DNA from: Cochleicola gelatinilyticus
GTDB taxonomy: Bacteria > Bacteroidota > Bacteroidia > Flavobacteriales > Flavobacteriaceae
NCBI RefSeq assembly: GCF_001637325.1
Contig: NZ_LRXL01000026.1
Location: 558,001-622,000 of the forward strand
Direction of reading: 5' to 3'
Length of the DNA stretch: 64,000 nt
Positions 1,208 to 36,100 of this stretch are shown one piece after another. A program made the position numbers and the translations under genes. Position 1 is the stretch's first letter. Each line of letters starts with the position of its first letter. Below the pieces are notes generated by a model. It was not told the DNA's origin. It ran no database searches and saw nothing but the letters and a program-made list of their open reading frames with translations.

Positions 1208-1286
1208 GGGCATTCCCCTCCTACGCTAAAGCTTCGAAGGGTCGGGCTTTCAGCGCTACACGGTAGCTTGCTTCAATCCCTAATGC
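1208..1286 (+). repeat. 79-bp folded intergenic element, copy 1
   Basis: This copy shares exact length and internal spacing with 35239-35317 (61 of 79 positions identical by my hand alignment). Parts: terminal inverted repeat GCATT (1210-1214) with AATGC (1282-1286); CCCT (1216-1219) with AGGG (1238-1241); conserved GGGTCGGGCT (1239-1248); and a tight hairpin GCTAC-ACG-GTAGC (1255-1267). In the other copy the terminal arms are GCAAG and CTTGC, so both changed pairs are compensated. There is no ORF in it. It resembles dispersed intergenic repeats I remember from flavobacterial genomes, but I cannot name a described family. Confidence 0.8.
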
Positions 1287-27399: not shown

Positions 27400-30300
27400 T
27401 TAATTTTTAATCAACTGCTTCGTTACAGATCCGTGGGTACCTTTAACACTTAAAATATATACCGCACTCTCTAATGTAACTACAGGAATAGAAATATTTT
27501 GTACAGCACTTTCAATTGCTTGCGAATAAATCACGCGTCCCGAAATATCATAGATTGAAATTGATTCGATATACTCACGATTCAAATTTGAAACCACAAC
27601 CCTATCTTGCGCCGGATTTGGATACAGTACAATACCTTCCAGATTATTTTCTGAAACCGACAAGGTTCGGTCTTCAAACAACACCATAAATCTTGAGTTA
27701 AACGTACCTGCTTCAGCTGTAAACTCATAGACTTCTTCGGAAAGGTTCGTCGTAATATTTAACTCGGTATCTAAGAGAAAAATTTCTGTAGTTTCTAGAT
27801 GAACACCCTGCACCTCTGAAATTGAGATACGATATTCTAATGAAGCGTCTAATTGTGTTGAAAATCCGACAGGAATTTTCATGTTCGTATTAAATTGTGG
27901 CACTCCTTGAATCCCTAATTCATCCCCGTGTTCAGTTTCAGAAAAGAGAGACAGAACTGTTGCCATTCTTCGGCTATCATACCCAGCATCTACATCGAAA
28001 GTTGCTTCCGAAGTAAATCCAACAAGTGTTGTACTCTGCATTCCATAGGTTCTATTTTCTACCTGTAGCCACAAACGATTTACTTCATCAACCTCATGCC
28101 TCCGTAATGTGTTGTTATTAGAAACACGCCGCATGGTATTTGTAAAAGTTACCGTTCCTGCTGCATTGGCTTTTATCCCAAAACCTTGTGCCGTAGAAAT
28201 AAATCCGTTCGGCTCAGTTTCAGTTCCAGAAGGATCGGAAGCAGCCGCAACACCACCCATTAAATTATACATTGAAATATCCTGCATGCTAAAATTTAAA
28301 TTGTTATAACCGGGTAACGACGCATTGGGCGGAGTAAGATGCTCCCAAAAATATACCTCATCGATCACCGAATTAGCATTAATAAGATCTACCGCAGAGA
28401 TCGCTGAAGCATACGGATTTGAAAAAATATTAGGACTGTCATTCTTTGTGGTATTAAACAAAGCAGGAATCGAAATGTCGCCTGTGTTTAAAGTTCCTTC
28501 AGAATAGGTTAAGGTATATGTGCCTTCTGGGACTGCTTCAGATTGGGGACGAATTAAGTAGCCTTCACCCACATTAATAGCTCCAGTATAATTTACCCAA
28601 TTATCACCATTGTCATCTGCAAAGTTTTCAGCCATAGGAAAGTCGTTTGCCACATCTAAATTCGGTACAAAATTTTCGGTACTATGATTTCGAACCATTC
28701 GTACATTTCCGAAAACATCGTTAGAAGTTTCCGTGGACATCGGGCTTCCCAGCATCATAAAATCACCATCATTAAGAGTTGGAGTGGTAACACTCACGTT
28801 TATTGTACCGTTATTTATAGCTTCGGAAGCTGCGTTACGTTGTACAATGTTTCCTTCATGGGCTACATTGATCACACCATTATTATCTATTCCGTACGCT
28901 ACTTCTATATAATCACCCGCAGCAATATTCACTGAAGTTAACAAATCTACCGAAAGGGAACAGGCTTGAAAACTGCCATAATCTTCGGTGGTATAATTTG
29001 ATCTAATAATAGCATTTGTATTAAAATTAGGAGGGTTAGGCACCCAAGCTCCCCCAATAAATTCTACCGTATCGGTACATCCTGGTAATGGTGCCTCTAC
29101 TGCTTGAACACGTAAGGATACTGTATTTGCAAAAACGGACCATCTAGAACCCCTTAAAATATATTCGGTGCCTGAGGTTAAGTTAAATATAATTCCGTTT
29201 CCAACAGCACAGTATAATTCTGTACCATTGCACGCATCGTATAATGAAATCACATCGAAACCACCAAGGTTACTTATCTCTATATTTCCATTAACCGGCA
29301 TATTAAATTTATAAAATACATCTAAGTTCTCATTGTTTTCATTTTGACAATCGGCGTTCATACTTTCTGTAGCTCCTCTTAGATCGTAAGGAATTTCGGT
29401 ATATTCTAAAACCCCTATATTTATTTCAGTAGCCATATCGCATTCATCGTTTTCCTCTCTTTCAAAAGCTTGAATTCCAAAAGTGATTGTATCGGCAAAA
29501 TTCGAAATTCGTGCCATTCTAAGTATATAGGTTGTGTTTTCAATAACATCATAAAGAAAACCATTATTAGTAAAGCACGTTAATTCGGTTCCTTCACAAC
29601 TATCATATAACGTTATATTATCGAAGCCTCCAAGCCCCGTTATTTGTATATTTCCTGTAACTGGGGCGGTAAATTCATAAAATACATCAAGATTTTCATT
29701 ACCTGAGTTTTCGCAAGATGAGTCAAGACTTTCTGTAGCGCTGCTTAATGCTACAGTATATTCTAATATTTCGGTCGTAGTAACATCGATGTTTGTGCGA
29801 TCGACACATGCATCGTTAACGACCTCTTGAAAAACTTGAAGTCCGAAGGTAATAATGTCGGCAAAATTCGATCTTCGTGCTATTCTAAGTACATAGTTAG
29901 AGTTTTGTGTAACCCCATATAAAAAGCCATCATTTGTGAAGCATGCTAATTCGGCTCCTTCACAAGCATCATAAAACGTAATATTATCGAAGCCACCAAT
30001 ACCAGTAATACGAACATTTCCAGTAACTGGCGCTGTAAACTCGTAGAATACATCTAGGTTTGTATTTCCAGAAGTATCACATGAAGAATCGGTACTTTCT
30101 GTAGCACCTCTTAGATCTACCGTGTATTCAGACACATCGGTTGTTGTAATTGTGATCGTTGTACGATCATCACATTCATTATTATCATTTTCAACAAACC
30201 CCTGTAACCCAAAAGTAACAACTGAGGCAAATATCGCCCTTCTTGACATTCGCAACACATACGGCGTATTTTGAGTAACCCCATATAAGAAACCATCATC

Positions 30301-30981
30301 TGTGAAGCACGTTAATTCGGTCCCATCACAGCCATCATAAAAAGTTACGTTATCGAATCCACCAATACCAGTAATACGAACCGACCCAGTTGCTGGCGCC
30401 ATAAATTCATAAAATACGTCCAGATTGGTGTTTCCAGCACTGTCACAAGAAGAATCGGTACTTTCTGTAGCACCTCTTAGATCTACTGTATATTCAGAAA
30501 TTTCGGTTGTGGTGACATCGAGATTGGTACGATCTTCACATTCATTATTGCCACTTTCTGCAAACGCTTGGATACCAAAAGTAACCACCCCGGCGAAGTT
30601 TGATCTTCTCGACATTCGTAGTACGTATGTAGCATTTTGAGTTACTCCATATAAAAAGCCATCATCTGTAAAGCACGTTAGTTCTACACCCTCACAACCT
30701 TCATAAAATGTTACATTATCGAATCCACCAATACCAGTTATTTGAACGTTGCCATTTACGGGTGCAACAAACTCGTACCACGCATCGTAATACGTGTTAG
30801 AAATATTGTCACAAGAAGACAAAACGCTTTGTGTAGCTTGGGTTAAATCTATGGTTTCTGAAGTAATTTCAGTCGTACTTAAACTTAATAAAATTCTATT
30901 ATCGCATTCATCATTTACGGGAGTTTGAGCCAATAAAGCAGTTGAAAAAACGAAGATAATTAGTTGTAAAAATAATTTCAT
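27400..30981 (-). CDS. T9SS-secreted protein with five 122-residue repeats
   Basis: A 1193-residue secreted or surface protein. Order: signal peptide 1-19; five tandem repeats of exactly 122 residues at 23-632, each opening with N-D/N-E/A-C, with a GATES..SSC segment, FYEF.AP..GN..I.G.GGFDN, a YxxCxGxEL.CF core and a YVLRxxRxS..F region; a unique beta-rich middle section (633-1115) with ASDPSGTETEPNGFIST and VDAGYDSRR; and a type A T9SS sorting domain at about 1118-1193 (LEGIVLYPNPAQDRVVV...ISGRVIYSQ...GTHGSVTKQLIKN). The six or so Cys per repeat suggest disulfides. The repeats resemble PPC-type or jelly-roll extracellular modules, but I cannot name the Pfam family with certainty. The gene is alone and convergent with the esterase-fold gene. 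Confidence 0.92.
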   Translation of the reverse strand: MKLFLQLIIFVFSTALLAQTPVNDECDNRILLSLSTTEITSETIDLTQATQSVLSSCDNISNTYYDAWYEFVAPVNGNVQITGIGGFDNVTFYEGCEGVELTCFTDDGFLYGVTQNATYVLRMSRRSNFAGVVTFGIQAFAESGNNECEDRTNLDVTTTEISEYTVDLRGATESTDSSCDSAGNTNLDVFYEFMAPATGSVRITGIGGFDNVTFYDGCDGTELTCFTDDGFLYGVTQNTPYVLRMSRRAIFASVVTFGLQGFVENDNNECDDRTTITITTTDVSEYTVDLRGATESTDSSCDTSGNTNLDVFYEFTAPVTGNVRITGIGGFDNITFYDACEGAELACFTNDGFLYGVTQNSNYVLRIARRSNFADIITFGLQVFQEVVNDACVDRTNIDVTTTEILEYTVALSSATESLDSSCENSGNENLDVFYEFTAPVTGNIQITGLGGFDNITLYDSCEGTELTCFTNNGFLYDVIENTTYILRMARISNFADTITFGIQAFEREENDECDMATEINIGVLEYTEIPYDLRGATESMNADCQNENNENLDVFYKFNMPVNGNIEISNLGGFDVISLYDACNGTELYCAVGNGIIFNLTSGTEYILRGSRWSVFANTVSLRVQAVEAPLPGCTDTVEFIGGAWVPNPPNFNTNAIIRSNYTTEDYGSFQACSLSVDLLTSVNIAAGDYIEVAYGIDNNGVINVAHEGNIVQRNAASEAINNGTINVSVTTPTLNDGDFMMLGSPMSTETSNDVFGNVRMVRNHSTENFVPNLDVANDFPMAENFADDNGDNWVNYTGAINVGEGYLIRPQSEAVPEGTYTLTYSEGTLNTGDISIPALFNTTKNDSPNIFSNPYASAISAVDLINANSVIDEVYFWEHLTPPNASLPGYNNLNFSMQDISMYNLMGGVAAASDPSGTETEPNGFISTAQGFGIKANAAGTVTFTNTMRRVSNNNTLRRHEVDEVNRLWLQVENRTYGMQSTTLVGFTSEATFDVDAGYDSRRMATVLSLFSETEHGDELGIQGVPQFNTNMKIPVGFSTQLDASLEYRISISEVQGVHLETTEIFLLDTELNITTNLSEEVYEFTAEAGTFNSRFMVLFEDRTLSVSENNLEGIVLYPNPAQDRVVVSNLNREYIESISIYDISGRVIYSQAIESAVQNISIPVVTLESAVYILSVKGTHGSVTKQLIKN
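29086..30915 (-). repeat. Five in-frame tandem repeats of 366 bp
   Basis: The coding repeats of the T9SS protein; all five are 122 codons with no indel between them. Copies 1-4 are the most alike (for example FTDDGFLYGVTQN and GIGGFDN recur nearly unchanged), the fifth has diverged most. Confidence 0.9.
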
Positions 30982-33847: not shown

Positions 33848-35212
33848 ATGTCTGTATTTTCAAAAATAAAAAACACCTTTTCTGTATTAAAATCGGTTGA
33901 CATTCAAGCTATCGCAAAACTATCTGAAAAGGTAGATCTTTCCGAAGTAATGAAAAGCGTCGGTGATCTCGACGAACGTCAACTCGCTGGGCTTATGCGT
34001 ATGCTCAAGACTAAGGCAAAAAAGGGGCAACACAAACTTCCACCTATCGATGGTGATTTTTACGACCTCAGCCTTAAACTTACCCCCGAACAACGAAAAA
34101 TTCAATTGAAAGTGCGAAATTTCATGGAAGACGAGATCAAACCCATCGCAAATGATTTCTGGAATCGTGCCGAATTTCCGCATCATATCATTCCGAAAAT
34201 GGCGGAACTCAATATTTGCGGAATGTCGTATGAAGGGTACGGGTGTCCCAATCAGACCTTTTTAATGGAAGGCGTCATGGCGATGGAACTTGCCCGTGTC
34301 GATGTGTCTATTTCTACCTTTTTTGGGGTACACAGTGGTCTCGCTATGGGATCGATCTATCTCTGTGGAAGTGAAGAACAAAAGCAAGAATGGTTGCCTA
34401 AAATGCAACGCATGGAAAAGATCGGTGCCTTCGGACTTACAGAACCCAACGTTGGTTCTGCTGTCGCGGGAGGAATGGAAACCACCTGTTATAAAGAAGG
34501 TGATGAATGGATTATTAACGGACAAAAAAAATGGATTGGTAATGCCACCTTCAGCGATCTTACTATTATTTGGGCGAGGGAAAAAGAAACGCATCAAGTA
34601 AAAGGGTTTATTGTACGTACCGATAATCCGGGGTATAAAGCCGAAAAAATGGAAAATAAAATGGCGTTGCGAACAGTTCAAAACGCCTTGATTACACTCA
34701 CCGACTGTAGAATTCCAGAGAGCGATCGGCTTCAGAAATGTGATTCTTTTAAAGACACTGCCAAAGTGCTAAAAATGACCCGGGCGTCTGTAGCGTGGCA
34801 AGCCGTTGGATGTGCAAGAGGAGCGTATGAAAGTGCATTGAAATACACCAAGAAACGGGAGCAATTCGGAAAACCTATTGCCCGTTTTCAACTCATTCAG
34901 AATCATTTGGTAGAAATGGTCGCTAATTTAACCGCAATGCAAACCATGTGTTTCCGACTTTCAGAAATGCAAGATCAAGGAATTTTAACCGATGAACACG
35001 CCTCGCTCGCTAAAGTATTTTGCAGCATGCGAACCCGTGACGTGGTAAGTCGTGCCCGTGAAGTAATGGGTGGTAACGGGATTTTACTCGAGTATGATGT
35101 AGCTCGTTTTGTCGCCGATGCCGAAGCCATATACAGTTACGAAGGCACCAAAGAAATCAACTCTCTTATTGTGGGCCGTGCCATTACAGGCTATAGCGCT
35201 TTTGTGAGTTAA
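33848..35212 (+). CDS. Acyl-CoA dehydrogenase, glutaryl-CoA-dehydrogenase-like clade
   Basis: FAD-dependent acyl-CoA dehydrogenase of 454 residues. An atypical 65-residue amphipathic extension (FSVLKSVDIQAIAKLSEKVDLSEVMKSV...) precedes the usual fold, which begins at LKLTPEQRKIQLKVRNFMEDEIKPIANDFWN. Signature FGLTEPNVGS is present, KYTKKREQFGKPIARFQLIQ follows, and the catalytic Glu is at 432 in IYSYEGTKEINSLIVGRAITG, in the position used by glutaryl-CoA dehydrogenases and relatives. The GRAITG ending also points to that clade. The substrate is not proven. It is a single gene; no electron-transfer flavoprotein genes are in the window. Confidence 0.92.
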   Translation: MSVFSKIKNTFSVLKSVDIQAIAKLSEKVDLSEVMKSVGDLDERQLAGLMRMLKTKAKKGQHKLPPIDGDFYDLSLKLTPEQRKIQLKVRNFMEDEIKPIANDFWNRAEFPHHIIPKMAELNICGMSYEGYGCPNQTFLMEGVMAMELARVDVSISTFFGVHSGLAMGSIYLCGSEEQKQEWLPKMQRMEKIGAFGLTEPNVGSAVAGGMETTCYKEGDEWIINGQKKWIGNATFSDLTIIWAREKETHQVKGFIVRTDNPGYKAEKMENKMALRTVQNALITLTDCRIPESDRLQKCDSFKDTAKVLKMTRASVAWQAVGCARGAYESALKYTKKREQFGKPIARFQLIQNHLVEMVANLTAMQTMCFRLSEMQDQGILTDEHASLAKVFCSMRTRDVVSRAREVMGGNGILLEYDVARFVADAEAIYSYEGTKEINSLIVGRAITGYSAFVS

Positions 35213-35238: not shown

Positions 35239-35317
35239 GGGCAAGCCCCTTTTCCGCTATCGCTGCAAAGGGTCGGGCTATTTGCGCTACACGGTAGCCA
35301 GCTGCTATCCCTCTTGC
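35239..35317 (+). repeat. 79-bp folded intergenic element, copy 2
   Basis: Same architecture as 1208-1286: GCAAG (35241-35245) with CTTGC (35313-35317); CCCTTT (35247-35252) with AAAGGG (35267-35272), two base pairs longer than in copy 1; conserved GGGTCGGGCT (35270-35279); and GCTAC-ACG-GTAGC (35286-35298). It lies between the acyl-CoA dehydrogenase and the FKBP gene. Confidence 0.8.
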
Positions 35318-35389: not shown

Positions 35390-36100
35390 ATGAAAACTCG
35401 CACTCTTTTTTTACTAAGCATATTAGTAATAGCTTCAATAGCACCTACAGCTACCGCACAAGAAAAAGCAAAACTTCAAACTTATTCAGATTCTATCTCG
35501 TATGCTATGGCTGCTTCGTATGCGACACAATTTCAGAACGTGTTGGGAGATAGTACCGCCACGTATCTAAATCCAGACATGTACTATCGAGGTTTGGTAG
35601 AGACCCTTGCTGGCGAGTCACAGATCGATTCCGAAGCACAAAAAGCATTACAGTTAAAATTTCAGTCCACGATGCAACGCATAAAACAAAGTACTTTAGA
35701 AACTGTGGGACTTGAAAACAAAAAAGTGGGCGAAGATTTTTTAAAAGCGAATGCTAAAAAAGAAGGTGTTACCACTACGGCCAGCGGACTTCAATATAAA
35801 GTATTGAAAGAAGGAACTGGAGCCATTCCAACAGCGTCGAATAAAGTTAAAGTACATTACGAAGGGCGCCTTATCGATGGTACTGTTTTCGACAGTTCGT
35901 ACGAACGTGGGGAGCCCGCAGTTTTTGGTGTTACTCAAGTTATTAAAGGGTGGACCGAAGTGTTGCAACTTATGAAAGAGGGAGCAAAATATCAAGTATA
36001 CATCCCTTCAGAACTGGCGTATGGCACACAAGCAAGAGGAGAGTTTATTCGTGCGAACGAAACTTTGGTCTTCGATGTGGAATTGATTAGCATACAATAA
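35390..36100 (+). CDS. FKBP-type peptidyl-prolyl cis-trans isomerase, exported
   Basis: A 236-residue folding catalyst of FkpA/Mip architecture: signal peptide cut after about residue 23, an N-terminal helical dimerisation domain (25-125, TYSDSISYAMAASYATQFQNVLG, QSTLETVGLENKKVGEDFLKANAKKEGV), and the FKBP domain (135-234). Active-site residues are visible: Y157, VFDSS at 166-170, VIKGW at 184-188, and PSELAYGTQA. Export suggests it assists folding of envelope proteins. The frame runs upstream through the 79-bp element to 35237, but only the ATG at 35390 gives a signal peptide. A -7-like box lies 27 bases before it. Confidence 0.94.
   Translation: MKTRTLFLLSILVIASIAPTATAQEKAKLQTYSDSISYAMAASYATQFQNVLGDSTATYLNPDMYYRGLVETLAGESQIDSEAQKALQLKFQSTMQRIKQSTLETVGLENKKVGEDFLKANAKKEGVTTTASGLQYKVLKEGTGAIPTASNKVKVHYEGRLIDGTVFDSSYERGEPAVFGVTQVIKGWTEVLQLMKEGAKYQVYIPSELAYGTQARGEFIRANETLVFDVELISIQ

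Follow-up and report, generated by a model that had tools for sequence, protein, structure and literature searches.

A dispersed, branched DNA repeat of Bacteroidia with an apical half filed in Rfam as the Flavo-1 RNA

The element at 1208-1286 of the window, the 64,000-nucleotide stretch of Cochleicola gelatinilyticus DNA analysed here, is a compact-armed member of a DNA repeat family dispersed through Bacteroidia, with its apical half filed in Rfam as the Flavo-1 RNA. The repeat folds as a three-way junction of P1 (the ends), the P2 side hairpin, P3, and an apical P4, with the fold maintained by compensatory change, and is present in many copies on Bacteroidia chromosomes, plasmids, and phages. 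Copy number, an orientation random with respect to chromosomal genes, swaps of the P4 arm, and occurrence on plasmids, phages, and a microvirus favour DNA over RNA. Tentatively, we regard the repeat as a mobile DNA site with a putative function exerted in single-stranded form, similar in action to ssi/Frpo sites, with a selfish repeat mobilised as single-stranded DNA being nearly as likely.

Fold of the element and its two window copies

The two window copies (Table 1) are equal in length (79 bases) and in the offsets of their conserved blocks, including GGGTCGGGCT at +31, and a recount confirms the 18 differences in 79 positions reported by the first-pass annotation. Four of these differences make up the two compensated P1 pairs that it had recognised (GCATT/AATGC versus GCAAG/CTTGC), and another two (1249/1275 versus 35280/35306) add a compensated pair in P3 that it had missed, with GGGCTT..CAATCCC in copy 1 corresponding to GGGCTA..CTATCCC in copy 2. 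Read along the top strand, P1 (GCxxx..xxxGC) is separated by a single linker base from P2 (CCC..GGG), whose loop or stem may be of any length; TC then leads into P3 (GGG-C-T-W..W-A-T-CCC), in which a C.T mismatch is fixed and which encloses the apical P4. The P4 arm falls into several unrelated classes, some with conserved internal loops, with the window copies belonging to the compact GCTAC-ACG-GTAGC class.

Table 1. Coordinates of the two window copies and loci of selected copies elsewhere.
Feature	Position or loci	Strand	Remarks
Element copy 1	1208..1286	- (strand modelled = Flavo-1 strand)	compact P4 class; R1 71.9 bits; Flavo-1 19.3 bits, under cut-off
P1 5' arm GCATT, copy 1	1210..1214		partner AATGC 1282-1286; compensated in all 12 own-genome compact copies
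P2 side hairpin, copy 1	1216..1241		CCC 1216-1218 with GGG 1239-1241; loop/stem length variable
P3, copy 1	1244..1280		GGG 1244-1246 with CCC 1278-1280; fixed C.T mismatch; encloses P4
P3 inner pairs, copy 1	T1248-A1276 and T1249-A1275		latter is A-T in copy 2
P4 apical hairpin, copy 1	1255..1267		GCTAC-ACG-GTAGC; unrelated P4 classes in other copies
Element copy 2	35239..35317	-	layout as copy 1, shifted by 34031; R1 71.6 bits
P1 5' arm GCAAG, copy 2	35241..35245		partner CTTGC 35313-35317
P4 apical hairpin, copy 2	35286..35298
Orthologous pairs with wholly different P4 arm class, same flanks and P1	L218/L226, L234/L239, L245/L249, L246/L250		two Algibacter genomes (G060/G061)
Viral loci with element at or just after stop of terminase-like ATPase gene	L387, L393, L357, L399, L401, L350 and others		diverse tailed-phage contigs

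Among the 12 aligned compact copies of the C. gelatinilyticus genome all 180 of 180 pair cells are paired, every one by a standard pair, with compensatory change at four pairs, bearing out the suggestion of the first-pass annotation that covariation reflects a maintained folded form. The paired fraction (100%) compares with 90% in shuffles and 34–53% with slid partners, and the covariation score (0.255) with 0.080 and at most 0.047 respectively. Across many genomes, 248 copies show a Watson-Crick pair at the variable P3 position in 243 cases (expected 120) and at the fifth P1 position in 245 (expected 155). The alternative pairing of AGGG with CCCT, also proposed at first, gained no independent support. 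Wobble pairs, counted on a registered subset of copies over P1 and the two pairs next below P4, favour the Flavo-1 strand: A.C on the top strand, a wobble when the Flavo-1 strand is read, occurs 31 times and G.T twice. These 33 cases are not 33 independent events because the copies are related. A set with mostly one copy per genome shows the same direction in small counts, and one P4 class has a fixed T.G pair of the opposite direction, favouring the top strand.

Copy 1 is preceded by a gene ending at 1142 and a terminator-like hairpin, and followed by a gene starting near 1360 that appears recX-like from reading of the sequence; copy 2 is flanked by a gene ending at 35212 and another starting at 35390. 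The description of a repeated, mobile-looking intergenic element with neither an ORF nor an adjacent transposase stands. A terminator is ruled out for the element itself, the T-tract preceding the hairpin rather than trailing it. Elsewhere in the window, a 366-base unit is repeated four times in tandem at 29494-30891 (63–74% alike), probably as repeats inside one protein.

Copy number, turnover, and chromosomal context

The 3.39 Mb C. gelatinilyticus genome carries 12 compact copies by exact pattern (0 with the reversed control), 14 with the apical arm free to vary, and 34 covariance-model matches at E<1e-3, both window copies (~72 bits) included, numbers well above what chance would give. The model was built from 18 sequences, the two window copies among them, and found exactly two matches in the window (71.9 and 71.6 bits). 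The whole-genome motif search proposed in the first-pass annotation reveals further copies, and the outcome it had named as fatal to its reading, no more copies or no covariation, did not occur. Exact-pattern copies are present in 21 of 60 genomes of relatives, and a sample of 118 genomes from the phylum contains 13 positives, about 12 of 13 (own genome aside) in the same class and only one genome from another class. Named loci come, among others, from Flavobacteriales, Sphingobacteriales, Chitinophagales, Cytophagales, Saprospiraceae, Bacteroidales records, and one Spirochaetales MAG, with 1 to 429 copies per genome and high counts of 80, 89, 152, 208, and 429.

Orthologous copies exchange whole P4 arms. 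Between two Algibacter genomes whose flanks are ~85–90% alike, P1 and the neighbours are kept and the P4 class or tip is often different, including pairs in which the arm class has changed wholly (Table 1). One site is occupied in one Algibacter species and empty in the other; the ends of the element are not firmly defined, because the stretch gained at this site seems to run on in the 3' direction for tens of additional bases. Some copies are broken, with a CCCGATAGCTATCGGGA-type palindrome in place of part of the element (L226 near 16580, L252 near 13960). Many other copies have a palindrome of this type in their P4 tips.

Orientation is random relative to chromosomal genes, with copies that have two clear neighbours lying on the same strand as tandem genes in 34 cases and on the opposite strand in 37, and between convergent genes in 28 cases and divergent genes in 17. 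A further 30 copies were placed inside ORFs by a simple ORF caller, these ORFs being mostly short and probably spurious. A cis-regulatory RNA was rejected on this lack of gene-strand bias. The 5' flank is T-rich and followed by GG, and direct repeats indicative of target-site duplication are no commoner in 153 flank pairs than in shuffled pairs. The duplication expected of a MITE of a DDE transposon was not found in these pairs, although the ends at which it was sought are loosely defined. Of 224 chromosomal sites, 141 have the Flavo-1 strand on the G-rich strand (p=1e-4), with orientation tracking local skew in the own genome (p=0.006), a bias that is modest overall and absent in an Aquimarina genome with 429 copies.

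Plasmids, phages, and the relation to Flavo-1

The first-pass annotation could tie the element to no described family, and here a correction is needed: Rfam RF01705 (Flavo-1, of unknown function in Rfam) corresponds to the P3 and P4 half of the element on the opposite strand. The RF01705 model leaves out P1 and P2, and therefore omits the three-way junction. Window copy 1 shows the conserved Flavo-1 P3/P4 fold with AGGGAT..AGCCCGA, and aligns to model positions 1-76 with the apical part deleted, scoring 19.3 bits against a cut-off of 42, and because of this score the window copies are relatives rather than members of Flavo-1 by the Rfam rule. Some relatives of the element score 44–65 bits (53.5 for one), with the cut-off passed at 6 of 20 loci carrying a copy. 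The likeness thus lies in the P3/P4 topology, in AGGGAT and AGCCCGA, and in the Bacteroidetes range, whereas P1 and P2 are absent from the Flavo-1 model, the window copies fall under its cut-off, and the evidence here favours DNA. The Flavo-1 motif has been listed as a Bacteroidetes candidate RNA (Weinberg et al. 2010, PMC2864571) and counted among the most abundant sRNA families (PMC9029176), with matches in the Flavobacterium psychrophilum transcriptome lying sense or antisense to transcripts and many being untranscribed (PMC9723704). No earlier description of the element beyond Flavo-1 was found in the open-access literature.

The element was found on 79 Bacteroidales plasmids, a count that rises to 84 with a longer query. 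The plasmids p5482 and pBF9343 and two more carry it upstream of a co-directional gene for an ArdC-like or zincin-like protein (ardC), a 98 kb plasmid type and three additional plasmids have a JAB-domain gene downstream of it, and on two others it is followed by pcfK/pcfJ with a small opposite ORF in between. If the relaxase side enters last, gene order on p5482 and pBF9343 predicts transfer of the Flavo-1 strand. In IMG/VR contigs, the start of the element is often no more than ~50 bases away from the stop codon of a gene for a Walker-type ATPase of 500–580 aa (Table 1), with 5 of 9 such ATPases tested matching PHROG large terminases at E<1e-5 and the rest weakly or not at all. The conserved placement upstream of ardC and JAB-domain genes and after terminase-like genes suggests a retained function. 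One complete 6.4 kb single-stranded DNA microvirus (Phage_F capsid, 54-base terminal repeat) carries the Flavo-1 strand as its coding, virion-sense strand; no relatives of it with the element were found, the search for relatives of its capsid returning itself alone. The Flavo-1 strand is accordingly antisense to its neighbours on plasmids, sense on the microvirus, and free of gene bias on chromosomes, with plasmid gene order and this one microvirus agreeing in placing it on the predicted transferred or virion strand.

Candidate function and competing explanations

Common to plasmids, microvirus, and chromosomes is that the same strand would take the single-stranded or lagging-template form, and therefore a site read as single-stranded DNA is favoured. 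The Flavo-1 strand would fold once single-stranded, whether during transfer, in the virion, or as lagging-strand template, and the invariant junction (AGCCCGACCC with AGGGAT) would be bound by a host protein, most likely starting the synthesis of RNA or of the complementary strand, as at ssi/Frpo-type sites. The copies on chromosomes, next to T-tracts between genes, would be mobile descendants that have spread there, and a start of synthesis at the site is what we infer. Covariation, the lack of gene-strand bias, the F. psychrophilum transcriptome (PMC9723704), the strand on plasmids and microvirus, the skew bias, and the wobble on the Flavo-1 strand count for this reading. Against it count the single microvirus, a transfer direction based on gene order, the modest skew, the T.G class, the drawing of the wobble from related copies, and a link to single strands that is not obvious in tailed phages. 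Like the Frpo/ssi sites of conjugative plasmids (PMC11541004), the element is foldable, on the predicted transferred strand, and upstream of co-directional anti-restriction or establishment genes; unlike them, it is branched, shows no visible promoter consensus (-35/-10-like elements) in its fold, and has many chromosomal copies.

A bolder version, that the Flavo-1 "RNA" is a Bacteroidia-wide single-stranded DNA signal, namely a branched ssi/Frpo-type site of conjugative plasmids and phages that has reached tens or hundreds of copies on chromosomes and alternates every 8–10 kb in one Aquimarina, is possible but doubtful. Were the element a single-stranded DNA site, a widely annotated RNA family would be misfiled, and Bacteroides plasmids would gain an early-expression or priming signal upstream of their anti-restriction genes.

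The closest competitor is a purely selfish REP/MITE-like repeat with no host function, in which a transposase, of the Y1 (HUH) type or another, would act in trans on the folded single strand, and the strand and site preferences would only record insertion into single-stranded DNA. This is consistent with the range of copy numbers, the Algibacter site present in one species and absent in the other, the broken copies, the T-tract flanks lacking target duplication, the chromosomal strand bias, and a gene for a REP-associated tyrosine transposase (NF047646, 91.9 bits) in the Aquimarina genome with 429 copies. That gene lies at L261 1225-1809 on the minus strand, with no element copy near. No Y1 transposase was found in the own genome or in other element-rich genomes such as G003 and G017, however, none of the Y1 genes checked has the element beside it apart from one 200 bases from a diverged copy, and the conserved placement beside plasmid and phage genes suggests a retained function. 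A RAYT/IS200 partner is absent or unlinked, and no mobilising enzyme was found. As in REP and RAYT systems (PMC2817692, PMC3686654), the copies are short, palindromic, intergenic, many (34 in the own genome, up to 429), and biased in strand, whereas the element is longer and branched, has no REP-associated Y1 transposase in the own genome and none linked to it elsewhere, and fits none of the REP classes listed.

The Rfam filing as a structured RNA, small or cis-acting and made from many loci, is unlikely to hold. The RNA-like covariation, the wobble bias towards one strand, the matches to the Rfam model, and the conserved internal loops of some P4 classes would all fit, but the element is indifferent to chromosomal gene strand, its matches lie on either transcript strand or are untranscribed (PMC9723704), the supposed RNA strand is antisense to plasmid neighbours and sense on the microvirus, and the P4 arms interchange freely.

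A chromosome-architecture site, such as a protein-bound boundary with alternating orientation as its signature, is highly improbable. Its support comes from the uncultured Aquimarina 821-3Z, with 429 exact-pattern copies, in which orientation alternates between neighbours in 75 of 85 cases (p=2e-13; loci L268-L307 on contigs C1, C4, and C7 of genome G065). Neighbours here are 8–10 kb apart and alternate by order, not distance, with lag-2 pairs at equal distances mostly sharing orientation, raising the question of how hundreds of alternating repeats in one chromosome get placed or selected. Alternation is not seen, however, among the listed copies of Algibacter genome G060 (9 of 19, first contig) or genome G067, most genomes have few copies, and the element is present on small phages and plasmids. 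Just as improbable is that template-switch copying in replication keeps the inverted repeats perfect with no selection on the fold: double changes (T-A to G-C in P1) with almost no intermediates and the abrupt replacement of arms and tips are in line with it, but the P1 arms are 5 nt long and 50–150 nt apart, and conservation of the junction GGGTCGGGC..ATCCCT across a bacterial class is unexplained by such copying.

The attC sites of integrons have a folded strand with variable tips, an R-box arrangement, and cassette arrays, and often lie just after a gene. The element resembles them in its folded strand, its variable tips, and its frequent position just 3' of a gene, and differs in being branched, in occurring as single dispersed copies instead of cassette arrays, and in lacking the R-box arrangement; attC was ruled out on this wrong box arrangement.

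A SAM riboswitch (73.7 bits; L051 1162-1287) lies within ~300 bases of one element copy. On plasmids (L372-L375) a shared motif, CACCC..TAAGGTA, is present 20–40 bases 3' of the element, and CCGCCAAAGGT, similar to this motif, follows some chromosomal copies, perhaps as a further arm.
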